A stretch of 43,945 bases of DNA from Candidatus Fermentibacterota bacterium. Lineage in GTDB: Bacteria; JAFGKV01. Below are positions 744-42,584 of this stretch, piece after piece. Location of the stretch: assembly GCA_030620115.1 (NCBI GenBank), contig JAUXFG010000008.1, positions 1 to 43,945 on the forward strand. Reading direction: 5' to 3'. A program made the position numbers and the translations under genes. Below the pieces are notes generated by a model. That model had not been told where the DNA came from and did not search any database. It saw nothing but the letters and a program-made list of their open reading frames with translations. Each line of letters begins with the position of its first letter. Positions within the stretch are counted from its first letter, which is position 1.

Positions 744-1438
744 GGCCACCTTCCTCCTTGCTGCGCTGCTTCCACAAATGCCTGCCAGAGGCGAGCCTGC
801 ACCGCACAGTCGCCCATCCTCTCAGGGTGCCACTGCACACCCACGAAGAAACGAGGCCCGAGATCCTCCACCGCCTCGATGAGGCCATCAGAGGAGTGTC
901 CCACAGGCAACAATCCTTGGCCCACGACATCTACTGCCTGATGATGGCTGGAATTCACCGTGATACGATTCCCCAGCAACTTCCCGAGTCTCGACGCATC
1001 GGCAAATAGAACGGCGTGTGTGCCGCGCGCATGGGGCAGCGCCTCCGGGCAGTGCTCATGGATATCGCGAAAAAGGGAACCCCCCCGTGCCAGGTTCAGA
1101 AGTTGCATCCCCAGGCAGATCCCAAGCACCGGTAGGGGGACATCCTCCAGAAGCCCGGCAAGCCGGAGATCATGATCCTCCCGGGTCTGTTCTCCAAAAA
1201 TCACCGATGGATGCGTACCGGCAATAGGATAGTCTTTTCCCACGATGAGCAGGATGCCGTCGGCCAAAAGAAGAAGATCGCTCAGATCGAAGCCTTTCTC
1301 AAGAATGGGGAGAACCATAGGTCTCCCCCCTGCCCGTTCGATGGCTCTCACATAGGCTACGGGCGTCACATTGGAAAGCCTGTGCGAAGAACCGACCTCT
1401 CTGAGATCCGATGTGATCAGGATGAGCGGCCGAGACAT
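740..1438 (-). CDS. Class I glutamine amidotransferase, gamma-glutamyl-GABA hydrolase (PuuD-like) family
   Basis: 232-residue stand-alone glutamine amidotransferase-like hydrolase. The nucleophile elbow VLGICLGMQ puts the catalytic Cys at 108, and the VQWHPE block supplies His204 and Glu206, completing the triad. The N-terminal PLILITSDLRE and the GTHPSV region match the PuuD/peptidase C26 group, which hydrolyses gamma-glutamyl amides. The ATG at 1438 (MSRPL) lies inside the last codons of lnt (22-base overlap). The reading frame stays open further upstream, but that part is a shadow of lnt. The gene ends by overlapping the GTG start of the IMPase gene, so lnt, this gene and the IMPase look like one transcript. 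The true substrate is unknown; no polyamine genes are nearby to support a putrescine role. Confidence 0.88.
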   Translation of the reverse strand: MSRPLILITSDLREVGSSHRLSNVTPVAYVRAIERAGGRPMVLPILEKGFDLSDLLLLADGILLIVGKDYPIAGTHPSVIFGEQTREDHDLRLAGLLEDVPLPVLGICLGMQLLNLARGGSLFRDIHEHCPEALPHARGTHAVLFADASRLGKLLGNRITVNSSHHQAVDVVGQGLLPVGHSSDGLIEAVEDLGPRFFVGVQWHPERMGDCAVQARLWQAFVEAAQQGGRWP

Positions 1439-2928
1439 TCTCTTTTTCCCTTCAAGACGAATGGCAGCAGAGCGCACATGGCCACCGCCACCAGGACCAC
1501 CCAATCGCCTGCCCGCGCATAGAAAGAAAGCGCTTGTCGAGGCCGCACCGCACCCACCAGCACCTCCGGCTTGAACAGCATAGAGCGTTGTTCGACCCTT
1601 CCCCATGGATCGGCGATGAGGCTGACGCCGCTGTTTGCCGCACGCACAAGCCAGCGTCGCTGTTCCACCGCTCGGATCACCGCCATGGCGGCATGCTGCT
1701 CCGGTGCTCCCGTGTTTCCGAACCAGCTGTCGTTGGTGATGTTTATCAGCAACTCCGAACCCGCTCTCACATGCTTCCGGACGAGCCGGGGCAAAATCGC
1801 CTCAAAGCAGATAAGCACGCTGGTTTTGGCGCCGTGCACCGGGAGCAGCACAACTTCCGAACCTTTTGCATAGTCGCCCTGCCCAAGATTTATCTTCTTG
1901 AGGATGGGGATCCTGTCCGAGAGAGGCATCTTCTCGCTGAATGGCACGAGATGCATCTTGTCGTACCGGCTGACGAAACCTTGATGAGGAAGCACAAGGT
2001 ACGCCGAATTCGTGGGGAGAGGCTCTCCGCGTTCTCTCTTCGTGCCAAGAGCTCCCGTGATGACTGGGAACTTTAGCTCATCGGCAAGCCCCGAAAGCCA
2101 CCTCTCTGATCCTCCTCCAGATCGGATGATGACAGGTAATGCCGTCTCCGGCCACACGATCAGCCCATCCGCGGAACCAAGGGATTCAGCAGCAGCTCTT
2201 GACAACTTCTTCAGATCACGGAATACGCGGCCCCGCCCGCCAGGCCGCCACTTGAATTCCGGAAGGGCGTTGGGCTGTACGATGGCCACCTGAACCGTCC
2301 CCGTCTCGCGGTCAGATACCACCGCACCCCAGAATATCCAGGCCACCAGAATGACCGAGGCCGCGAACACCATGCTCAGTCTCCTGCCCTCCGCCGCCTT
2401 GACAAGCAGGAGATTGATCCAGGCAATCCCCATGCCCAAAAGCCACACCCCGCCAACAGCCGCAGGCTGCAGGAGGATCGGCTGGGCGGACAACGAATTC
2501 GGCAGGATCGTCCAGGGGAATGCGAGAATCGTAAGGGACCGGGAGAACTCCGTCACGACCCAGATGGCAGGCCAAAGCCACCAATAGGTCGCTGACACGA
2601 GGTTCCATCCTAAGAATGCGACACCATAGAAAAGGCCCTGATATGCAGCCACCGAGACCAAGGCGGGGATTCGAATTACGGGATAGACGATTTCAGTGGC
2701 GTAGAGCCGTGCGATCCACCACAGCGTGCCGAGATGAAACAAGAATCCCACAAGCCATCCGACCAGGAACGCGCTGCGGGCATCCCGATAGGCTCTGGAG
2801 GTGACAAAAAGCACGGGGACCAAGGAAAAAAAAACAAGTGGATACAGGCCGAAACGAGGGAATGCCAATATGAGGCCTACTGCGGACAGAACGATCCCTG
2901 CCCCGGTTCGCCTAACCCGAAACTTCAA
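1417..2928 (-). CDS. lnt: Apolipoprotein N-acyltransferase
   Basis: Inner-membrane enzyme that adds the third acyl chain to the N-terminal Cys of lipoproteins. The 503-residue length is normal for Lnt. The first 200 residues hold several hydrophobic segments, followed by a periplasmic nitrilase-like domain. The catalytic residues are visible as Glu261 (GLIVWPETALP), Lys324 (RYDKMHLVPFSEK) and Cys374 (VLICFEAILP), matching the E. coli Glu-Lys-Cys triad. A final hydrophobic segment lies near residue 480. The likely start is TTG at 2928, seven bases after a GGGAGG. That SD lies at the edge of a dispersed palindromic repeat that fills the space upstream. The gene fits a Gram-negative cell with triacylated lipoproteins, two of which (the serpin and a Bat-operon protein) are encoded in this window. 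Confidence 0.95.
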   Translation of the reverse strand: MKFRVRRTGAGIVLSAVGLILAFPRFGLYPLVFFSLVPVLFVTSRAYRDARSAFLVGWLVGFLFHLGTLWWIARLYATEIVYPVIRIPALVSVAAYQGLFYGVAFLGWNLVSATYWWLWPAIWVVTEFSRSLTILAFPWTILPNSLSAQPILLQPAAVGGVWLLGMGIAWINLLLVKAAEGRRLSMVFAASVILVAWIFWGAVVSDRETGTVQVAIVQPNALPEFKWRPGGRGRVFRDLKKLSRAAAESLGSADGLIVWPETALPVIIRSGGGSERWLSGLADELKFPVITGALGTKRERGEPLPTNSAYLVLPHQGFVSRYDKMHLVPFSEKMPLSDRIPILKKINLGQGDYAKGSEVVLLPVHGAKTSVLICFEAILPRLVRKHVRAGSELLINITNDSWFGNTGAPEQHAAMAVIRAVEQRRWLVRAANSGVSLIADPWGRVEQRSMLFKPEVLVGAVRPRQALSFYARAGDWVVLVAVAMCALLPFVLKGKRECLGRSS

Positions 2929-3133
2929 CTCCGAACCTCCCTATCCAGTATCGAGAGGCGTCCCAAGAAAGACAGATATTCAACATCCAACATCGAACAT
3001 CGAACGTCCAACGCCGAAGTGCAAGAGATCAGAAGTTGGATGCGCGTTCCTCGTTCCCATGGTTCGACGTTCGATGTTGAATGTTCGATGTTGGATGTTT
3101 CCGCCCGCCTGTCCTGAGCGTAGTCGAAGTGAG
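2927..3133 (-). repeat. Dispersed palindromic repeat, CATCGAAC family, copy A
   Basis: About 200 bases between lnt and the Gfo/Idh gene. Two arms are built of variants of AACATCGAAC (2981-3008) and the inverse GTTCGATGTT (3065-3096), joined by a spacer of about 60 bases. The whole block, including flanks with CCTGTCCTGAGCGTAGTC, matches the reverse complement of 23498-23706 almost end to end. It carries no gene: the frames open across it are repeat translations. Its left end supplies the GGGAGG and spacer of lnt. Confidence 0.9.
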
Positions 3134-3162
3134 CGGAGTCCAGAGGTTGGCGGCCGGTCCCA

Positions 3163-4167
3163 CTAACCCTCTCTCCCTGCCGAGGCGTATATCTTTTCCA
3201 TCATGGCCATCAAAGAGACAAGATTATCTGCGTCCGTCGACAACTCATCGGGGGTTTCCAATACCTGGGTGATCAATATCCTCAGAGCGTCTTTGTACGA
3301 CTGCTGATAGAGTTCCCACTCAGCGGTCGCGATTCTCGGCACCACGGTCACAGGGCTCCCGTAGAGTTCTTTATGGATCTGAAGGCCGGGAAGGGTCGCC
3401 GTCCCACCGCTCCCGTACACCTCGAGCTTGAGTCCACCTGGTTCATCTGCGCCGAGCCATGGGCCTAGCTCCATGGCCAGCACGACACCATTCCCCAACC
3501 GGAGCAAGACCAGCGCCGCTTCCTCTATTTCCGCACATCCCTCCAGGGGAAAAATCGCCGCAGACGCAGTCTCGATCTCCTCCGCCCCCGCGATGTAGAG
3601 ACCAAAATCCAAGAGTTGTGCCCCCTGATCCAAAAGAATCCCACCGCCGCTGAGGGAAACCTGACCTCTCCACGAGCCGTGGAGCCACCCGTGAGAAAAC
3701 CGATACCGCAGAAGAAGGTACTGGACCGTGCCCAACTCACCGCCCACTATGAGCGTTCGTAATGTTCTGCTATCCGCCCTGAATCTCCTGTGTCGAATCA
3801 TGGCGAGAATCCGGCCGCTCTGCCGGGAGATGTCGCGGAGCTCACGTGCCTCTTCTTTCTCCATTACCGGCGGCATCTCGAGAAATACGTGTGCGCCCAT
3901 CTCCAGGGCCACTTTCGCCAATGGAAAGTGGAAACGTGTAGGCGTGGTAATGATCACGGCATCGCAGCGTCCCCGTTCTATCAGCGCCTCGATGTGTGAT
4001 TCAACGACGGAGATGTTCTCCCTCTGTGCAAGATGCTTGGCCTTCTCTACGTCAATGTCACAGAGACCTGCAATGCGTGCACGGGGCTCGTGCAGTAGTA
4101 CCGGCAGATGAGCCACCTGGGAAAGCGAACCCACACCAACGAGACCAACACGTAGTGTATCACTCAC
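3163..4167 (-). CDS. Gfo/Idh/MocA family oxidoreductase
   Basis: 334-residue NAD(P)-dependent oxidoreductase of the Gfo/Idh/MocA superfamily. The N-terminal Rossmann motif VGLVGVGSLSQVAHLP, the CDIDVEKA strand end and DAVIITTPTRFHFPLA are typical. The family's E-K-P motif appears as LEMPPVMEKEEA, so the usual catalytic Lys of EKP is replaced by Met. This may mean altered activity. The C-terminal alpha/beta domain is complete. The start is taken as GTG at 4167 after GAGAGGGGG, overlapping the upstream kinase stop by 8 bases; a TTG at 4197 is an alternative lying deeper in the kinase gene. The gene lies between the PfkB kinase and lnt. Its substrate is probably a sugar or cyclitol derivative, which cannot be named from sequence. 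Confidence 0.88.
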   Translation of the reverse strand: MSDTLRVGLVGVGSLSQVAHLPVLLHEPRARIAGLCDIDVEKAKHLAQRENISVVESHIEALIERGRCDAVIITTPTRFHFPLAKVALEMGAHVFLEMPPVMEKEEARELRDISRQSGRILAMIRHRRFRADSRTLRTLIVGGELGTVQYLLLRYRFSHGWLHGSWRGQVSLSGGGILLDQGAQLLDFGLYIAGAEEIETASAAIFPLEGCAEIEEAALVLLRLGNGVVLAMELGPWLGADEPGGLKLEVYGSGGTATLPGLQIHKELYGSPVTVVPRIATAEWELYQQSYKDALRILITQVLETPDELSTDADNLVSLMAMMEKIYASAGREG

Positions 4168-5119
4168 TGCCGACCCCCTCTCTATGGCCGAGGTCAAAAG
4201 TAGTCAGCTTCTTGAACTCGACAACCCGCTCCTCAATCTCTTCCATAGTGAGGCTCGCGAGACGGTTGACACCAAAATCTTCGACACAGAATGAAGCAAC
4301 CACCGAGCCATGGACAATGGCGCCCCTCAGCGCAGCCTCTCCCGGGACGCGGCACGACGCAAGATATCCCATGAACCCGCCGGCAAAACTATCTCCCGCC
4401 CCTGTGGGATCGATCACGGAGTCCAAGGGAAACGCAGGTGCAAAAAAACATCCACTGGGTAAGACCATCATGGCGCCATGCTCACCCTTCTTGACCACTA
4501 CACTCTTTGGTCCGCGATCGAGCACGATATTCGCAGCCTTCAGCAGATTGGGCTCATCGGCCATCTGGCGTACCTCTCCATCATTCAATAGAAGCACATC
4601 GAGTTTCGCCACCACGTCCATCAGTTCATCATGCTTCAGGTCTATCCAGAAATTCATCGTGTCTCCGGCAACAATAGCAGGGCTCAGCACTTGCCGAAGA
4701 ACCGATGCCTGGAGAGCGGGATCGATGTTCCCGAGGAACACGTATCGCGTGTCTCGATAACGCTCCGGGAGATCCGGTCTGAATTGCTCGAAGACATTCA
4801 GCTCAGTGAAAAGCGTATCCCGTTGATTCAGATCATAGCCATATTTTCCGCCCCAGCGGAACGTCTTCCCGGGCACTCGCTGGAGACCGGCAAGGTCGAC
4901 TCCCTTCGAACCGAGAAGGTCAACTGCTCCTTCGGGGAAATCATCTCCCACAACGCCTACGAAACGAACAGGAGCATAGAGCGATGCAGCCAATGAGAAA
5001 TAGACTGCAGAGCCCCCCAGCATGTCCTTCGCCTCACCGAACGGGGTAATCACCGTATCGAGTGCTACCGAACCCACGACCATGAGTTCATTTCCACCTG
5101 CAGTATCCGTGGTGCTCAA
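4160..5119 (-). CDS. PfkB-family carbohydrate/nucleoside kinase
   Basis: 319-residue kinase of the PfkB (ribokinase) superfamily. The N-terminal substrate motif GGSAVYFSLAAS is at 35-46. The C-terminal signature DPTGAGDSFAGG spans 237-248, with the catalytic Asp at 243 and the anion-hole GAG before it. The start is TTG at 5119, eight bases after an AGGGGG stretch; ATG at 5083 is possible. It follows the MTA phosphorylase gene after 12 bases and overlaps the oxidoreductase gene. This kinase next to a nucleoside phosphorylase suggests a role in handling the pentose 1-phosphate released by phosphorolysis or another pentose. Archaeal ribose-1-phosphate kinases belong to this superfamily, but the substrate here is inference. 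Confidence 0.9.
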   Translation of the reverse strand: MSTTDTAGGNELMVVGSVALDTVITPFGEAKDMLGGSAVYFSLAASLYAPVRFVGVVGDDFPEGAVDLLGSKGVDLAGLQRVPGKTFRWGGKYGYDLNQRDTLFTELNVFEQFRPDLPERYRDTRYVFLGNIDPALQASVLRQVLSPAIVAGDTMNFWIDLKHDELMDVVAKLDVLLLNDGEVRQMADEPNLLKAANIVLDRGPKSVVVKKGEHGAMMVLPSGCFFAPAFPLDSVIDPTGAGDSFAGGFMGYLASCRVPGEAALRGAIVHGSVVASFCVEDFGVNRLASLTMEEIEERVVEFKKLTTFDLGHREGVGSE

Positions 5120-16103: not shown

Positions 16104-17256
16104 ATTGGGGCCCCGGGGTCATCGCGAGCGATAGCGCGGCGATCTCAATGGGCGGATGATCTTGCTTCGTCGCGGACTCTATCCTGCCTCCGGCCTGTAG
16201 GGCCTACGCCCCGGAGGGAGCTTGTCGAAGGGCTCCTCGCAATAACAAATGGCGGGGCTACGGTTCCGGAATCTCTCTACGGGATTCTATATTCCTAATC
16301 CTGAACCGTAGCGATAGGCCGAGACCGTAAAACGAGAGAATGAAACATTCCCGGAAATCCCTGAACAGATGAGTGAGCCTATTCATGCTCTGTTGATGTG
16401 CGATACCTTCGCGATCTGAGGCACTCTGGCATGCTTTTGCTATCGTTCGCCGTCGAGTGCGCGGAGAAACAGATCTTCAGGCTTCAGCGATAGGTCAATA
16501 GTCAGGAAACGGAGAAGTGTGTCCAAGAACAGGAGACTTGACGACAATACGGAATGCTGACCCTGTTCTTGCCACAAGTCCGTGCGATATTGGAGAAATC
16601 TCCTCACCGAGCCGTAGGCTCTATGGGCCGGAGGTCTCAATCCCCATTTGCAGGAACTGACAGTAGACGCCCTTATCCACATGGTTCGGATGAAACGAAA
16701 CCCAACGCTTTGATGTTCTGGAAATGAGCTGCCATTGTGCCCCTAAGGGGCATGACATACTAGCCTAGGGGAAGTCCGATAGGGCGTAACCCTGGGAAAC
16801 GGGAATAAAAGACCCTCAGCCCTGTTAGTGCGAGACATCGTATGGACAGGAGGACGGGCAATGGGCTGTCACACCCTTTCAGGGCTTGGATCTATTGGGT
16901 ATCTGTGATCCAGGCCGGCGGCCGCTTGCTTCGACTTCGCTCAGCACAGGTCGCGTCCTTGCCCTGGGCTGGTATGTGAAGCCCCTTCGGGGCACAATGG
17001 CGAGAATGACTATGACCGCCAATGTCTTCTTCCTTCATTCGGAATCGACATCGCTATCGGGATCGGCATCGAATTGAGGCGTGATCACATAATCCTCAGT
17101 CGCGAGCAACGATGTGACCGGTTTCGATCCCGATTCCGATTCCGATCCCGATGATGTTGTGGATCAGACAATTGCCCCCGGTGTGATGTGTGTCCTGCTG
17201 TCAGCTCCATGGAAGGAAGAGAAGCGTGGATGCTCGGATTTATTGAGAAGTCACAT
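16104..17256. repeat. Non-coding repeat module, copy I
   Basis: About 1.1 kb with no credible gene. The stretch 16576-16890 is collinear with 41770-42087: first a decayed version of the MITE interior (AAGTCCGTGCGATAT..., 16576-16655), then a block from TGATGTTCTGGAAATGAG (16711) to CCCTTTCAGGGCT (16873-16885). A second, inverted copy of the CCCC...GGGGCACAATGGC part is at 16965-17009. Then come GATCGG/CCGATC hexamer tracts (17034-17070 and 17127-17148), and the block ending near 17250 aligns with 42295-42400. Open frames here are repeat translations. At 16104-16250 lie further common environmental repeats such as CTTGTCGAAGGGCTC. Confidence 0.8.
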
Positions 17257-17290
17257 ATACTCTAGTAAATCTATGGATTTACTAGAGTAT
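17257..17290. repeat. Perfect palindrome, CTCTAGTAAATC family, copy 1
   Basis: Perfect 15-base arms: ATACTCTAGTAAATC (17257-17271), a TATG loop, and GATTTACTAGAGTAT (17276-17290). It lies 150 bases before the beta-propeller gene. Related copies are at 20678 (target of the IS) and 32747. Confidence 0.9.
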
Positions 17291-17442
17291 TATTTCAATG
17301 GCTCTAACCTGCTTCTTCGCCGCTTTCGCCATCTATCAAGGCTTGACTGAGCTTCACCGATCCCGTATAATCCCGTTACAATGAGCTCTCCAGCATGTCT
17401 CGAACAGACCCAAACCGCTGAACCATCAACTAGGAGGACAGG

Positions 17443-18852: not shown

Positions 18853-18997
18853 CAGCGTTTTGATTTCCGGATGCAGTGGATGCAGGGTCTGGCCTTGACC
18901 TGTGGTCTCTGTCTTGAGCTCGCCCAAGGGCTCAACAACCCAACGGCTTCCCCGCATTTCGCTTTTCTTCCCTTTCCAGCATCCCTTTCTCCACCCA

Positions 18998-19099
18998 GAT
19001 TCTTCGGGCGTTCCGCTTCCTCAGAATGACACACAGTACCACATTCGTCTGCACGCGACCCCTGTCATTCTGAGCGATTGCAACGAGCGAAGAATCTCT
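18998..19099. repeat. Inverted repeat, GATTCTTC...CAGAATGACA family, copy 1
   Basis: Left arm from AGATTCTTCGGGCG to TCAGAATGACA and right arm TGTCATTCTGAGCGATTG to GAAGAATCTC, separated by about 33 bases. The ends of the arms are well conserved and the middles diverge. It lies downstream of the beta-propeller stop. Two other full copies are at 30813 and 32825. Confidence 0.88.
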
Positions 19100-19137
19100 C
19101 TTCATTCCTGCTTTTGGCTTTTCTTTCAAATCTCTAG

Positions 19138-20677
19138 CCCTACAACGACAGTTAGTCACTGCTACTCTCTTCCATTTAACTTTTTCTTGCGATGAGAGAG
19201 ATAGGCTTGATGATTTCGGCGCTGTATCCATCGAACCAATTCCAGAACATCCTTAACATCGAACCTCCTCATTGGAAGCACCACATCCAAAAGGATTCTA
19301 AGCTGTGAGACGGTAATAGCTGGCGCTTTTTTTTTCCAACCTGATTTTCAGGTGCCAGAGGAAATAGTGAGCCAGTATGCACGTTAGCATATGGTGATTC
19401 CAACCAGCATACTTCCTCATTTCGTAGTGATCCATACCAAGGTCATCTTTGCACTCCTCAAAACACTGCTCAATTGCCCATCTCATACCAGAAAGCCAAA
19501 CAAAAGTGGGAAGTCTTACGCTCCTTGAGGCATTACTTGTGTAGAATGAATAGGTTGGATTCTCACCAATAGTCCGTCTTATGAGAAGCCAGACCTCCTT
19601 GCCAGGCAGGCCATCCTTGGATAGTATCACTCGTCTCCTGGTAAACTCATACGTTATGGGACCCTTGGTTCCTTCAGATACGGTTCGCCTATACCAGAAA
19701 AAGTCATGGAGGCCCTCGGCCACATCAGCCACTGTGAGGGGTTTTCTTGACTCGTCCTCGAGAACATCCCTTTCCCGAATCTCGCCTTTGTATCTGTACT
19801 TCTTTCTTCTGGTGATAGGCATCTTGAGCCATACCCTTAAGTCTTTTCCCACAGACACAAGATAGATTTTGCCGGAAAGTCCTTCCGTGACCTTTATGAA
19901 GTCGGGACTCTGGCCGTAAATACTATCAGCCACCACGTACTTGAAGGGAAGTTCAGTACACTGAGCCAGTTCTTTGAGCATCTCTGCGGCCAGTTGAGGC
20001 TTGGTCTTGAACTCCATATCCTCCGGCACCTTGCACTTCTTTCTTCTTTCCTCGTGTTCCTCATCGAACCACTGTTCCGGTACAAACAGCCTCGAATCCA
20101 CCAAGGCATAGCCATGAGGTGAAGCATAGGCACTGAACACCCCCACCTGACAGTTATCAACCTTGCCGAGTGAACCACAGTATTGCTTGGCCACCCCCAC
20201 AGAGTCAGAGCCCTTCTTTGGAAAGGATGTTTCATCAAAAATCATAACCCCATTCGGGTCCGCCAAATCCTCCCCAGCAAGACTACGATACTTGTAGTAC
20301 ATTTTTTTCTCATCCCAAATCGCATCACTTACAGCCCGCTGTACGGCTCGTACAGAGCCGCCCTCCACTGATAGTGCAATCGGCTCCATGGATTTCTTTT
20401 CCAGGTCCGATAACTGGCCAACCATGTACCTGAGAAAATTTTCCTTGGTCTCGGAACGCTGAAAACAGTCTCCGAACTCTCCATGAAATGCCCTCAACTC
20501 ATCCATGAACGAGTCCACGTCACTGACATCAATTTCAAACTTGGGAACTGCAAAAATGTTTCCTTGCTTACGACAATCAGGCAACATGCTCTTCCCCTCC
20601 TTCCTGGGTTTTGGAAGAGATATTACCATACCAAATGCCGTCATGCAAGAGAAAGATCTCTAACCGTCGTTGTGGGG
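19138..20677 (-). mobile_element. IS701-family insertion sequence, complete, with CTAG target duplication
   Basis: 1540-base element. Terminal inverted repeats are CCCTACAACGACAGTTAG (19138-19155) and CTAACCGTCGTTGTGGGG (20660-20677), matching at 16 of 18 positions when one is reversed. Both ends are flanked by CTAG (19134-19137 and 20678-20681), a 4-base target duplication as known for the IS701 family (YTAR). It holds a single full-length transposase gene on the minus strand. Joining the flanks through one CTAG restores the small palindrome seen intact at 32747, so the insertion site is a repeat. Confidence 0.93.
19298..20587 (-). CDS. IS701-family DDE transposase
   Basis: 429-residue transposase, full length for the family. 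The RNase-H-like catalytic residues are visible: Asp118 in GVMIFDETSFPKKG, Asp221 in YVVADSIYGQSPDF and Glu373 in MRWAIEQCFEECKDDLG. Other family blocks are VAKQYCGSLGKVDNCQVGVF and YASPHGYALVDSRLFVPEQWF. The start is ATG at 20587, 6 bases after GGAGGGG; the frame is open 57 bases further, to the region before the SD. No frameshift or stop is seen, so the enzyme may be active. About 160 bases lie between its stop and the left terminal repeat. Confidence 0.95.
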   Translation of the reverse strand: MLPDCRKQGNIFAVPKFEIDVSDVDSFMDELRAFHGEFGDCFQRSETKENFLRYMVGQLSDLEKKSMEPIALSVEGGSVRAVQRAVSDAIWDEKKMYYKYRSLAGEDLADPNGVMIFDETSFPKKGSDSVGVAKQYCGSLGKVDNCQVGVFSAYASPHGYALVDSRLFVPEQWFDEEHEERRKKCKVPEDMEFKTKPQLAAEMLKELAQCTELPFKYVVADSIYGQSPDFIKVTEGLSGKIYLVSVGKDLRVWLKMPITRRKKYRYKGEIRERDVLEDESRKPLTVADVAEGLHDFFWYRRTVSEGTKGPITYEFTRRRVILSKDGLPGKEVWLLIRRTIGENPTYSFYTSNASRSVRLPTFVWLSGMRWAIEQCFEECKDDLGMDHYEMRKYAGWNHHMLTCILAHYFLWHLKIRLEKKSASYYRLTA

Positions 20678-20701
20678 CTAGTAAATCCATAGATTTAGTG
20701 G
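20678..20701. repeat. CTCTAGTAAATC palindrome, copy 2, split by the IS
   Basis: CTAGTAAATC (20678-20687), CATA, then GATTTAGTGG (20692-20701), with two mismatches between arms. Its missing left part (AAATCTCTAG, 19128-19137) lies on the other side of the IS. The rejoined sequence matches the surroundings of copy 3 at 32741-32762. Confidence 0.85.
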
Positions 20702-20854
20702 AGATTTATTAGATTGATGATCTTGAGAAACAAATGACACTCGCGCCACCGTTCAGAGCTCTTCGTTCCGACACCAATGCCGAGGAGAGATCGCCAGATC
20801 AATCGCTGAGATCGCTGCTGGGGGAGGCGCATCGGATTGAGGCCCATCCGCCGA

Positions 20855-21080
20855 CTGACGGACCCTGCCCTCCACAGCACAAGACGGATGCATTCCCCAC
20901 TGGAGGGCCATGCTCCGTCATGGCCGTCGTTGGTGCGCAAACTTGCGGACGCGACGGAGCGCGTCCCTCCACTGGACAAGACGGATGCATTGCACGATGG
21001 AGGACCATGCTCCGTCATGGCCGCCGTTGGTGCGCAAACTGCCGGACGCGATCCGCCAGCAGTCGGACATCTCTCCATAA
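20855..21080. repeat. Tandem repeat of about 97 bases, CATGCTCCGTCATGG family
   Basis: Two adjacent units, with CATGCTCCGTCATGGCCG at 20909 and again at 21006 (period 97). Each carries TGGTGCGCAAACT, GCGTCCCTCCACTGGACAAG-type and GACGGATGCATT segments. The block matches 35280-35466 in reverse orientation. It is non-coding: the frames across it are repeat translations. Confidence 0.85.
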
Positions 21081-22550: not shown

Positions 22551-23426
22551 ATGCTCTCCCGTGAACTCCTGAAGAAAGTCCGGCAGATACAGATACGGGC
22601 TCGGAAGCCGGTGGCTGAGCTGCTGGCTGGAGAATTTCGCTCGGTGTTTCGCGGCACGGGCATCGAGTTCGATGAACTGCGGGAGTATACCCCTGGGGAC
22701 GACATTCGGGCTATTGACTGGAACGTCACTGCGCGGATGGGCAGGCCGTTCGTGAAGAAGTATATGGAAGAGCGCGAGCTTACCATCATGCTGGTAGTTG
22801 ACCTTTCAGGCTCCATGAGCTTCGGTACCACGGCAAATCTCAAGCGAGAGCGGGCCGCGGAACTCTCCGCCCTTCTGGCTTTTAGCGCGGCTCGGAACCG
22901 CGACAAGGTTGGCCTCATCTCGTTTACCGATCGGATCGAGCAGTTCATTCCGCCGAAGAAGGGTACCCGTCATATGCTCCGGCTCATACGGGATATGCTC
23001 TACTTCGAACCTCTGGGGAGAGGGACGAACATCGCCGATGCGTTGAGATATCTCAACCTCGTGGTGCACAGGAAAGCAGTGGTTTTCCTCATTTCCGACT
23101 TCTATGGCAGGGAGTATCTTCACGACATGCGGCTCTCCGCAAAGAGGCACGACCTCGTCAATATCGTTATGCGGGATGAACGCGAGACCAACCTTCCATC
23201 ATTGGGTCTTGCGACGTTCAATGACCCTGAGACCGGGGAGCTTCTCGTGGTGGATACCTCCAGCAAGTCGTTGCAAAGGCAGCTTCGCGCGGCGATCCGT
23301 GATGAAGAGGAATGGCTCGCCCGAGAAACGGCTTTATGCGGGGCTGATCTTTTGTACATCGGCAGCCGTGACGACTATGTCACAAAACTCCATGGTTTTT
23401 TCCAGAGGAGGGAGCGGGCCTCGTGA
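22551..23426 (+). CDS. DUF58 domain-containing protein (VWA-like)
   Basis: 291 residues. The DUF58 signature is very clear: FRGTGIEFDELREYTPGDDIRAIDWNVTARMGRPFVKKYMEERELT, followed by a VWA-like fold with LVVDLSGSM (MIDAS Asp-x-Ser-x-Ser) and VFLISDFYGREY. This protein regularly follows moxR in Bat operons and is thought to be part of the same assembly at the inner membrane. No membrane span is visible. The start is ATG at 22551 (MLSRELLKKVRQIQIRARK, the usual N-terminus); the SD is weak, which fits coupling to the preceding gene. Confidence 0.93.
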   Translation: MLSRELLKKVRQIQIRARKPVAELLAGEFRSVFRGTGIEFDELREYTPGDDIRAIDWNVTARMGRPFVKKYMEERELTIMLVVDLSGSMSFGTTANLKRERAAELSALLAFSAARNRDKVGLISFTDRIEQFIPPKKGTRHMLRLIRDMLYFEPLGRGTNIADALRYLNLVVHRKAVVFLISDFYGREYLHDMRLSAKRHDLVNIVMRDERETNLPSLGLATFNDPETGELLVVDTSSKSLQRQLRAAIRDEEEWLARETALCGADLLYIGSRDDYVTKLHGFFQRRERAS

Positions 23427-23497
23427 GGGATGGTTCCGTGGCCCTCAGTCGGTGGGATCGTTCAGGTGGGAAGCGTCTCATAGGATGGATCCGTCGG

Positions 23498-23700
23498 CCC
23501 CGTGACTACGCTCAGGACAGGCCGGCGAAAACGTTCAACATCGAACATTCAACATCGAACGTCGAACCATGGGAAAGAGGAACGCACATTCAAATCCTGA
23601 TCTTTTCCACTTCAGCGTTGGATGTTGGATGTTCGATGTTGGACGTTGAATTCTTGCCTCTCCCGGGACGTCTTTCGACACTGGATGGAGAGGATCGGAG
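23498..23700 (+). repeat. Dispersed palindromic repeat, CATCGAAC family, copy B, inside the Bat operon
   Basis: About 200 bases inserted in the operon between the DUF58 gene and the lipoprotein gene. Arms 23535-23567 and 23619-23652 are built of AACATCGAAC / GTTCGATGTT variants. It aligns in reverse with copy A (2927-3133) from the CCTGTCCTGAGCGTAGTC end through to the GGAGAGGATCGGAGTTG end. As in copy A, that last end forms the SD region of the next gene. It is non-coding. Confidence 0.9.
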
Positions 23701-23703
23701 TTG

Positions 23704-24687
23704 ATGGTTCGGATCAAGAATCTCTTTGTTCTCATGGGTCTTTTGGTGGCTTGTGGGGGGGTGGGTGACTCACCCGAGACGATCCGGTGGTCACATTCCT
23801 ATGTTTTCGGGGGGCGTCCCGTGGAGCTGGTGGTGCGCGTTGACCAGGACAGCATCGATGTGGCTCAGAACCTTCATGTACAACTCAAACTCTCCTCGAG
23901 CAGTCAAGTCCGGGCCATGCTTCCCGAAGCCCGCGAGATAGCACTCAAACGATTGGTGCTCAGGCGAGCGGAGACCGCGCCGCCGGAACCCGGCGATGAT
24001 GGTGGGCATGTGGAACAGCTCACCCTGATTCTGGAGCCGACCCTGCCGGGCGAGGCACGTGTGGGGCCTATCCGAGTCCACTATGAGCAGGAAGAAGGAG
24101 GAACGTGGATCGAGCATACGCTTGAGGCAGAGCCGATATCTATTGCAATTCGGTCATTGGGCGTGCCCGAGGAAGGGCCTATCGAGTTCAAGCCCCCCAG
24201 AGGGGTTCGCTCGCCTCGGGTGAACCTGGTTCCTTACTATGTGTTGGGAGTCGCCGGCGTCTTGCTTCTTTTTGGCGCTCTGTATTGGTTTTTCTTGCGC
24301 CGAGGAAGGATAACGGCGCCTCCCGTGCCGCCCTACAGGCTTGCACTGAAGGAACTCAGAGCCTTGGAGAGTCGCGGTCTTCTACAGAGAGGTGAACTGA
24401 ATCGCTACTACATGGAACTATCATACATACTCCGTCACTACGTGGAACAAGCCTTCAACATTCCGGCTTTGGAGCTTACGACCTTGGAGTTTGCCCAAGC
24501 ACTCCGATCATATGACGTGGTTGATGGTGACCAAGAAGCACGGGCTCGTGAGCTTCTGGAGGAGGCCGACCTCGTGAAGTTTGCCAAGTTCGATCCCGGT
24601 GGCGAGAGGGCCAGGGATCTGTTGCATTTGGCCAAGGGATTTGTCCGCTCCACGGCGCCGCGCGAAGAGAAAACGCATGGAGTTTGA
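23704..24687 (+). CDS. Bat-operon lipoprotein with one membrane span and C-terminal helical domain
   Basis: 327 residues. The N-terminus is a lipoprotein signal with lipobox LVAC (Cys17). A beta-rich domain (about 25-170) resembles the oxygen-tolerance/BatD-type Ig module. A membrane span follows near 178-200 (YYVLGVAGVLLLFGALYWFFL). The C-terminal domain has the pattern ALKELRALESRGLLQRGELNRYYMELSYILRHYVEQAFNIPALELTTLEF, as found in small BatD-related or DUF4381-like proteins of Bat operons. The start is ATG 23704; the TTG just before it at 23701 corresponds to the lnt start in copy A of the repeat and is equally possible. The last 11 bases overlap the next gene. Confidence 0.8.
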   Translation: MVRIKNLFVLMGLLVACGGVGDSPETIRWSHSYVFGGRPVELVVRVDQDSIDVAQNLHVQLKLSSSSQVRAMLPEAREIALKRLVLRRAETAPPEPGDDGGHVEQLTLILEPTLPGEARVGPIRVHYEQEEGGTWIEHTLEAEPISIAIRSLGVPEEGPIEFKPPRGVRSPRVNLVPYYVLGVAGVLLLFGALYWFFLRRGRITAPPVPPYRLALKELRALESRGLLQRGELNRYYMELSYILRHYVEQAFNIPALELTTLEFAQALRSYDVVDGDQEARARELLEEADLVKFAKFDPGGERARDLLHLAKGFVRSTAPREEKTHGV

Positions 24688-25806: not shown

Positions 25807-25934
25807 AAATGAACATCCAACATCGAACGTCCAACATCGAACATCGAAGAGAAGAGCCTCTCTTTCACGGCAGTCGTTGGGTGTTTCCGCCATTTGGCGG
25901 ATTCGATGTTTCTTCTTCCGAGTGTAGCTGAACC
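25807..25934 (+). repeat. CATCGAAC-family repeat, partial copy C, inside the Bat operon
   Basis: A run of AACATCCAAC / AACATCGAAC variants (25808-25848), then a spacer, then a short opposite segment GATTCGATGTTTCTTC (25901-25916). The second arm is mostly missing, so this is a degraded or different form of copies A and B. Like them it sits directly before a start codon, that of the batB-like gene at 25935. The whole gap 25688-25934 is non-coding. Confidence 0.75.
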
Positions 25935-30658: not shown

Positions 30659-30812
30659 CCCGAACTTCCCCTTATTTCTGCCAAAAACCTCTACGGAAAC
30701 TTCATCGGGAGCTTTGGCGGGAGCTTCGTCGATTCCAAGTGAAGTTTCCAATCCTGAATGGCCCCGCTCCATCCAGTGCCCCGCTGACCCGCATCACTCT
30801 CACGTTACCCCC

Positions 30813-30914
30813 GAGATTCTTCGGTCCCTATGCTCCCTCAGAATGACATGCACTACGATGCCGGAATGACCTCTACCCCTGTCATTCTGAGTGACTGAAA
30901 GGAGCGAAGAATCT
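30813..30914. repeat. Inverted repeat, GATTCTTC...CAGAATGACA family, copy 2
   Basis: Arms from GAGATTCTTCGGTCC to CAGAATGACA and from GTCATTCTGAGTGACTG to GAAGAATC, with about 40 bases between. It is downstream of the Bat operon. Confidence 0.88.
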
Positions 30915-31324
30915 TTCCCGCTCACTCCTCGGAATATCAGGATGGACTCTAGGCTATGAATCAGGCTTCAGGACCATGAAAAGGTATTCATAGGATGCGG
31001 GAAGAATGGCGCAGACCATTCCTTGATTCGGTCTCGCATTTCGGCAGGCCTCGTTGGGTTTGAACGAGCGGGACGCGGTACCATGTTGCAGCTATCTCAA
31101 TCATCCGTATCAAGGCCGCCCGGCATATCGCGGAGAGTTATGGCATCGGCAGGGACGGCCCGGCATGCTCAGACCGTCCCACGAGGCGGTGGTGATGAAC
31201 GAGACGAGCGCAGGTGGAACGAAATATGCTAGCTACAGGAGTGAGTAGTTTCGTTGACATGCGTCTCGTACCGAGCGGGTAGGTCGGGCTTGGAGTGCAG
31301 GTTTTCCATACAGGAGGAGTAGAT
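30915..31324. other. Spacer before the PilX-like gene
   Basis: No gene is supported. A hairpin with perfect arms GGGACGG / CCGTCCC and a 15-base loop lies at about 31153-31181. The open frames here have no SD and no recognisable product. Confidence 0.4.
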
Positions 31325-32746: not shown

Positions 32747-32774
32747 CTCTAGTAAATCCATAGGAATACTAGAG
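32747..32774. repeat. CTCTAGTAAATC palindrome, copy 3
   Basis: CTCTAGTA at the left and TACTAGAG at the right, with AATCCATAGGAA between. It starts 25 bases after the PilX-like stop. The context GAAATCTCTAGTAAATCC matches the sequence restored when the IS is removed from copy 2. Confidence 0.85.
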
Positions 32775-32824
32775 TATTCTCTCAAGCCGTTTATTGCGTA
32801 GAACGAGAGCAGATAACCCTTCCC

Positions 32825-32928
32825 CGAGATTCTTCAGTCGCTCTGCTCCCTCAGAATGACACGCATTGTCGCGCCCAGTAACCTCAACGCCTGTCATTCT
32901 GAGTGGCTGAAAGGAGCGAAGAATCTCT
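32825..32928. repeat. Inverted repeat, GATTCTTC...CAGAATGACA family, copy 3
   Basis: Arms from GAGATTCTTCAGTCG to CAGAATGACA and from TGTCATTCTGAGTGGCTG to GAAGAATCTC, separated by about 32 bases. TTCCCC lies on both outer sides, but it is offset and is not a clean duplication. The gap 32723-33065 holds nothing else. Confidence 0.88.
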
Positions 32929-33065
32929 CTTTCCCCTTCCGATTTTTTCCTCATTCCTCAGTTCGAAATCCCCATCTCTTCCATAGGAACCCTTGTCATC
33001 CGTAAGGGCATCGAGGAGATTCATCGACGCACAAGAACACAGTCTAACTTTCGGAGGTGTATGGT

Positions 33066-35279: not shown

Positions 35280-35466
35280 CATGATGGAGGGATGTCCGCC
35301 AGCTGGCGGATCGCGTCCGTGAGTATGTGCACCGACGGCGGCCATGACGGAGCATGGCCCTCCAGCGAGGAATGTGTATGTCTTGTCCAGTGGAGGGACG
35401 CGTTTCATCGCGTCCGCGGTGTGCGGCACAGGCGGCCACGACGGCGGATGGCCCTCCAGCGGATAG
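35280..35466. repeat. CATGCTCCGTCATGG repeat family, reverse copy
   Basis: In the gap between the convergent ends at 35213 and 35607. In reverse complement, 35330-35410 aligns with 20950-21040 over about 90 bases (CGCGTCCCTCCACTGGACAAG-type, then GGCCATGCTCCGTCATGG). A second, shorter unit follows to 35466. The remaining 140 bases to 35606 show nothing recognisable. Confidence 0.8.
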
Positions 35467-41756: not shown

Positions 41757-41890
41757 GTAACTTCTCAATAAGTCCGTGCGATATCGGAAAAATCCCCCTC
41801 ACCGAGCCGTAGGCTCTACGAGCCGGAGGCCTCAATCCCCCTTTGCAAAAAGGGGAGAAGGCTTGAGGCACCGACTTATTGAGAGGTTAC
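41757..41890. mobile_element. 134-base MITE, probably IS66-derived, with 8-base target duplication
   Basis: Terminal inverted repeats GTAACTTCTCAATAAGTC (41757-41774) and GACTTATTGAGAGGTTAC (41873-41890) match at 17 of 18 positions. It is flanked on both sides by GGATCCTC (41749-41756 and 41891-41898), a perfect 8-base direct repeat. Ends starting GTAA and an 8-base duplication are known traits of the IS66 family. The inside has nested inverted repeats (GCCTCAA...TTGAGGC around TCCCC...GGGGA) and no coding capacity. A decayed copy of the interior is at 16576-16655. Confidence 0.88.
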
Positions 41891-42584
41891 GGATCCTCAT
41901 ACTCTGATGTTCTGGAAATGAGCTGGCATTGTGCCCCGAAGGGGTGAGACATACCAGCCCAGGGCAAGCCCGATAGGGCGTAACCCTGGGGCAGGGTAAC
42001 AAAATGCCCTCAGCCCTGAAAGTGCGAGACATAGAAAGGACAAGAGGATGGATAAGGGACTGTCACGCCCTTTCAGGGCTGGAGGGATTACCATTATGGT
42101 ATAATGGAGTCAGGCAGCTCGCGGACGAAGGTAACTTGATCGGAATCGGCATCGCGATCGGAATCGGTATCGAATAGAGGAGTCATAACATGGCCCTCAG
42201 TCATGGGAATCTGAACATGCGATGAGGGCGAGAGTTTTGATGTGATTGATTTCGATAGCGTTAGCGATGGCGATTCCGATCCCAATCCCGATAGCGATGA
42301 TGTTGTGGAGGAGAATGAATAGCCACGGCGTGATGTGTGTTCAATAGTCGTCCTTGCGAACGCGGGAAAGCCTGGATGCTATGACTTGTTGAGATGCTAT
42401 GATCTCGGTTCTCACGTGCCAACGGGCCTGCTATTCGGGGCTCTGGTGCTCGCATGAGAGTTGCAGGGCTTGGCATGTTCCATTAAGATTTCTCCCCTCG
42501 GGAGGATTATGCCATGAATCTGCTTACCAACATGAGTGAGATTGCAGACCAGCCCGTTTCTCATGAAGAAGGGCCCCGGAACTG
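41891..42584. repeat. Non-coding repeat module, copy II
   Basis: The long gap after the methyltransferase, no gene. 41905-42087 aligns with 16711-16890 (TGATGTTCTGGAAATGAG to CCCTTTCAGGGCT). Next come hexamer tracts of GATCGG type (42138-42173) and the inverse CCGATC type (42259-42297), forming an inverted pair. GATGATGTTGTGGA and GGCGTGATGTGTGTT (42296-42341) are shared with copy I. The last 150 bases before the PEGA gene show nothing recognisable. 41543-41748 is also empty. Confidence 0.8.

Follow-up and report, generated by a model that had tools for sequence, protein, structure and literature searches.

The nearest precedents for the repeat described here are, by analogy, the REP2/CREN elements of Neisseria and the RU elements of enterobacteria. 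The repeat is present in two copies, A and B, in a 43,945-nucleotide stretch of a Candidatus Fermentibacterota genome (contig JAUXFG010000008.1; the whole stretch is hereafter called the window), where one of its ends coincides with the starts of lnt and of a BatD-like gene. REP2 also places a ribosome-binding site (RBS) just ahead of ATG. In Neisseria, REP2/CREN is a dispersed palindromic repeat of ~150 bp that lies directly upstream of unrelated genes, for example nhba, pilC1 and crgA (PMC9031163, PMC3898611). The likeness is one of position, directly ahead of genes and with a terminal RBS, as seen here in 6 of ~14 copies; compared by description, our repeat differs in that it provides the start codon and the initial codons as well, and in that many of its copies lie away from starts. 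CREN has been linked to contact-induced regulation, whereas our repeat has no evident regulon, and copy A, when scanned, showed neither a promoter-like nor a terminator-like site.

ERIC and RU sequences are small intercistronic repeats that share transcripts with the adjacent genes (PMC2229807). RU sequences may become joined in frame to genes, and several Yersinia loci have N-termini similar to RU-2 (PMC2759123). They have no apparent sequence relation to our repeat, the comparison being by description only, and RU fusions add longer segments of open reading frame (ORF), whereas our repeat ends in a compact module of Shine-Dalgarno (SD) sequence and start. Correia/NEMIS and other bacterial miniature inverted-repeat transposable elements (MITEs) are short, non-coding and dispersed, as our repeat is, and alter the expression of neighbouring genes (PMC3898611). 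In Maribeggiatoa, most TAACTGA repeats lie no more than several nucleotides from a start codon (PMC4679880); they are heptamer direct repeats in a genome where, according to a section heading of that report, canonical RBSs are rare, whereas our repeat carries an SD. In the literature searched, none of these elements is described as a single dispersed module that provides an SD together with a start codon at several unrelated operon junctions; the original description of REP2 lay outside that search, and REP2 may come closer.

Taken as a whole, the evidence makes it probable that the repeat is a small (~200-290 nt), asymmetric, non-coding element of MITE-like kind, which is tolerated at gene junctions because the SD and the in-frame start codon at one of its ends replace those that it displaces.

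Copies A and B in the window

Copy A (2912..3169, reverse strand) occupies the entire 234-nt gap between the stop of a GFO/IDH/MocA oxidoreductase gene (3163..4197, reverse strand) and the start of lnt (1417..2928, reverse strand), which encodes an apolipoprotein N-acyltransferase of 503 residues (PF20154, LNT_N, E=1.2e-24; PF00795, CN_hydrolase, E=3.8e-25). Read from the sequence, its SD is GGGAGG (2941-2936), followed by the 7 nt TTCGGAG (2935-2929) and by the TTG start of lnt (2928-2926), to which the repeat adds the codons AAG TTT CGG GTT AG; as it is preceded, at six codons' distance, by an in-frame TAG, this TTG is the most upstream start that lnt can have. The palindromic core (2982..3099) is made up of a pair of CATCGAAC-type arrays, at 2982-3018 and at 3063-3099, that are 86% complementary. 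GGGTTAG stands at either end of the copy, and at the left edge it contains the TAG stop of the oxidoreductase gene (3163-3165), to which the left-hand block extends; an orthologue of this gene was sought to see whether the repeat had supplied its stop, and only distant homologues were found.

Copy B (23427..23718, forward strand) lies between the stop of a DUF58 gene (22551..23426, forward strand) and the start of a BatD-like gene of DUF4381 type (23701..24687, forward strand; PF14316 at E=2e-4, under the curated cut-off, with orthologues found). It strongly resembles copy A over 23504-23712, its left part being more degenerate; the identity is 86% over 209 nt (2917-3125 versus 23504-23712), far above chance. 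Its right end reads GAGAGG (23688-23693, the SD), ATCGGAG (to 23700) and TTG (23701), with an in-frame ATG at 23704.

An earlier, sequence-only reading had placed GGGAGG-TTCGGAG-TTG, the outer end of copy A, at the lnt start, and the corresponding end of copy B, GAGAGG-ATCGGAG-TTG-ATG, at a gene of a Bat operon, with both copies oriented alike relative to the downstream genes; all of this was borne out (2941-2926, reverse strand; 23688 onward, forward strand). The range that it assigned to the repeat, 2927-3133, does contain repeat but falls short at both ends, the similarity running ~18 nt past the T of the TTG into lnt and the left-hand block reaching 3163-3165, and its name for the element, the CATCGAAC repeat, fits only the palindromic core, which also occurs without the RBS end.

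Anatomy and distribution of the family

The full element runs from GGGYTAG-TGGGGCCACCCGCC... through the palindromic CATCGAAC core and a unique right arm to GGAGAGG-TTCGGAG-TTGAAGTTTCGGGYTAG. The consensus of the right end is GGAGAGG, 7 nt, and TTG AAG TTT CGG GYY AG, in which the frame of the TTG is open and the remaining two are closed by TGA and TAG. When 13 copies are lined up by their TTG, identity per column averages 0.75-0.88 over the 25 nt preceding it, about 0.7 over the next 10 nt, and 0.25 by 20 nt past it, against a background of about 0.24. Because identity holds past the TTG before it drops, the start codon and the next 4-6 codons belong to the repeat; similarity between copies extends ~18 nt beyond the T of the TTG, into the downstream gene.

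Copy A as query yielded about ten long copies in the host genome and, besides these, numerous short hits confined to the CATCGAAC core. The right end as query (as sequence, pattern and profile model) yielded 13-14 solid copies, and a reversed control pattern gave zero matches in the same genome. Two copies (on C4 and C145) consist of the right end only, the C99 copy has lost most of the palindrome, and the match on C46 is a weak fragment; those on C5, C274, C32 and C130 were left out of the count as too short or not homologous. The core also stands alone at many sites, among them an array at 25812..25849 (forward strand), ~86 nt ahead of the next ORF. Among the 98 genomes searched, the family is present in this one only; two genomes of the same family (G001/G002) hold short CATCGAAC arrays, and a search with the end model found no credible right end in them. 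With its 13-14 right ends in varied contexts the repeat is short, non-coding, multi-copy and dispersed, as MITEs are.

A second repeat (GGGACCATTCATGGAAGAAACTTGG...GACGAAGTTCGAGACGAAG...) often directly abuts the right end of the element (on L155, L160, L163 and L232, immediately to the right of C235, C275, C114 and C46). The C274 repeat, related to this type, has the same GAAGTTTCGGGTTAG end; repeats therefore seem to be joined to one another at GGGTTAG.

Gene starts at the right end

In 6 of the ~14 copies, a gene start falls within the last ~18 nt of the repeat, always in the frame of its TTG. Four genes start at this TTG itself: lnt (copy A, LKFRVRR), the BatD-like gene (copy B, LMVRIKN), a zinc-ribbon methyltransferase (C155, LKLRVRL) and a membrane protein of 743 residues (C4, LKFRARI). 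The other two start two codons further in, a radical-SAM protein with GTG (C255) and trmFO with TTG (C251). At the opposite edge, the TAG stop of the upstream gene coincides with the end of the repeat in A, C255 and C251. A start would lie within this range for 1.3% of intergenic points and strands chosen at random, as estimated over 359 kb of stretches, which gives 6 of 14 a binomial probability of ~1e-8.

The six starts, and the orientation of the repeat with the genes, could also reflect a selected regulatory 5' untranslated region (UTR), that is, the leader of a regulon, retained to regulate translation as has been proposed for CREN/REP2 in Neisseria. In several copies, pairing of CCTCTC with GAGAGG could form a hairpin that masks the SD; however, this hairpin is 80.8% paired versus 80.7% in shuffles, with a single compensatory change (C251) and no excess of covariation, several copies have a different minimum-energy fold, and folds of single copies disagree, so that this structure was rejected. 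The genes downstream have no evident common function, most copies are elsewhere than at starts, and the window has no Rfam match. As covariation in the hairpin, a promoter-like or terminator-like site in copy A, an Rfam match in the window and an evident shared gene function are all wanting, a dedicated regulatory leader is unlikely. Of the portable 5' UTR that the sequence-only reading had suggested, the SD, the 7-nt spacing, the start codon, the open frame and the gene start in 6 of ~14 copies stand, but the dedicated 5' UTR does not.

Orthologous junctions without the repeat

Each of the six genes has an orthologue in at least one of the two same-family genomes, and the orthologues examined are free of the repeat. 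Copy B offers the clearest comparison, with the repeat between a matching stop and start that overlap in the relatives: in both of these, the DUF58 and BatD-like genes overlap as TGATG with nothing between them, whereas the DUF58 gene of the host ends in ...RRERAS-TGA (versus ...RERAR* in both relatives) and is followed by the repeat and then by the TTG-ATG of the next gene. The methyltransferase start overlaps the preceding gene as GTGA in one relative and follows a short gap in the other; the lnt junction does not provide a clean empty site, as the upstream gene order differs in the relatives. The match to the orthologue begins at host residue 12 in lnt, 11 in trmFO, 9 in the BatD-like protein, 5 in the radical-SAM protein, 8 in the methyltransferase (7 against the second relative) and 7 in the membrane protein; in all six, homology thus sets in near the last of the residues supplied by the repeat.

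These features suggest how a repeat of MITE-like kind could be tolerated. In sequence, its right end forms a complete initiation site, with SD, 7-nt spacer, UUG and open frame, from which translation would start in vivo. A copy that arrives by transposition at a gene-gene junction in sense orientation would cut the downstream gene off from its native RBS and start and supply its own; such insertions would survive where others within an operon would silence a gene, and the enrichment at starts would then reflect selective survival rather than targeting. The repeat would become an intercistronic leader, and the new N-terminus would gain ~4-6 residues; in some copies the left-edge GGGYTAG also falls on the stop of the upstream gene.

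Evidence against, and alternative origins

A number of points speak against this account. Eight of the 14 copies lie away from starts: four between convergent genes (C85, C275, C99) or ahead of no clear gene (C90), one between divergent genes (C169), and three at tandem sites with another repeat next to them (C235, C114, C145). The gene caller behind the random expectation was a simple one based on codon scores; 66 of 169 same-strand gene pairs overlap or sit at most 10 nt apart, and for this reason a null counted per base is generous to the hypothesis and one counted per junction would be far less extreme. The host genome is a draft of 4.1 Mb in 296 contigs, and empty sites are not comparable base by base, since the two relatives share 39-64% protein identity for these genes. 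The ends coincide with starts more often than random intergenic points would (6 of 14), as the sequence-only reading expected, but on a lenient scale; the outcome that it named as refuting, most copies in random orientation or away from starts, is partly borne out by the eight copies away from starts. Of the tandem-site copies, 8 of 9 run with the genes, the weak C46 fragment being the exception.

The same tightness of operons and the same eight copies would be expected of an ordinary intergenic repeat with a purine-rich end, which survived by chance at tight junctions with native starts perhaps just downstream. We regard this as unlikely, because the consensus itself holds the SD, the 7-nt spacer, the TTG and the open frame, because four genes use the repeat's TTG and two a codon of the same frame slightly further in, and because the right end on C4 starts a gene even without the palindromic core.

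On inspection, the edges show no clear terminal inverted repeats (left GGGTTAG-TGGGGCCACCCGCC, right GAAGTTTCGGG-TTAG), palindromy being confined to the interior. GGGTTAG flanks copy A and CTAG flanks C255 on both sides, C251, C155 and B being different; no consistent target-site duplication was seen across the edges examined, and no transposase was identified for the repeat, no search aimed at transposases having been made. With none of these marks to hand, it is the dispersal of the copies that points to mobility, and this too counts against the account given above. An integration specific to stop-start overlaps or to YTAG/TGA motifs would explain the GGGYTAG at both edges, the TAG stops at the left edge of A, C255 and C251, and the location of copy B exactly at the ancestral TGATG; it is nevertheless very unlikely, given the inconsistent target duplication and the copies at convergent and divergent sites and within clusters of repeats. 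It is conceivable, if doubtful, that the tolerated repeat is in fact a mobile stop-spacer-start cassette, whose left edge contributes a stop and whose right edge contributes an SD and an in-frame UUG, and which can thereby invade the stop-start overlaps of operons.

Other repeats nearby

The window holds a further palindromic dispersed repeat (AGATTCTTCGG...CTCAGAATGACA / TGTCATTCTGAG...GAAGAATCT) at 18991-19100, 30808-30917 and 32822-32929, and a similar repeat is found immediately upstream of the C4 copy. A short, near-perfect palindrome, CTCTAGTAAATCTATGGATTTACTAGAG, occurs at 17257-17298, 20676-20714 and 32747-32785, and a TCCGTCATGGCCG-containing repeat forms tandem and inverted copies, 77-89% alike, at 20868-21078 and 35284-35462. 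The members of a long pair (16576-17001 and 41770-42089) are 82-92% identical in pieces, with inverted arms around GCCCC...CATTGTGCCCC.

Implications

In the common view, non-coding gaps are the only places where most small bacterial repeats survive. If a repeat ends in a translation start, it could insert into operons at the sole point that leaves both neighbours intact. Were the repeat a cassette of the kind considered above, it would make the genes of tightly coupled pairs initiate independently, their N-termini being rewritten as it spread. More generally, a repeat ending in this way would break the translational coupling of neighbouring genes and provide them with new N-termini, a testable path to the acquisition of intercistronic spacers and start codons.
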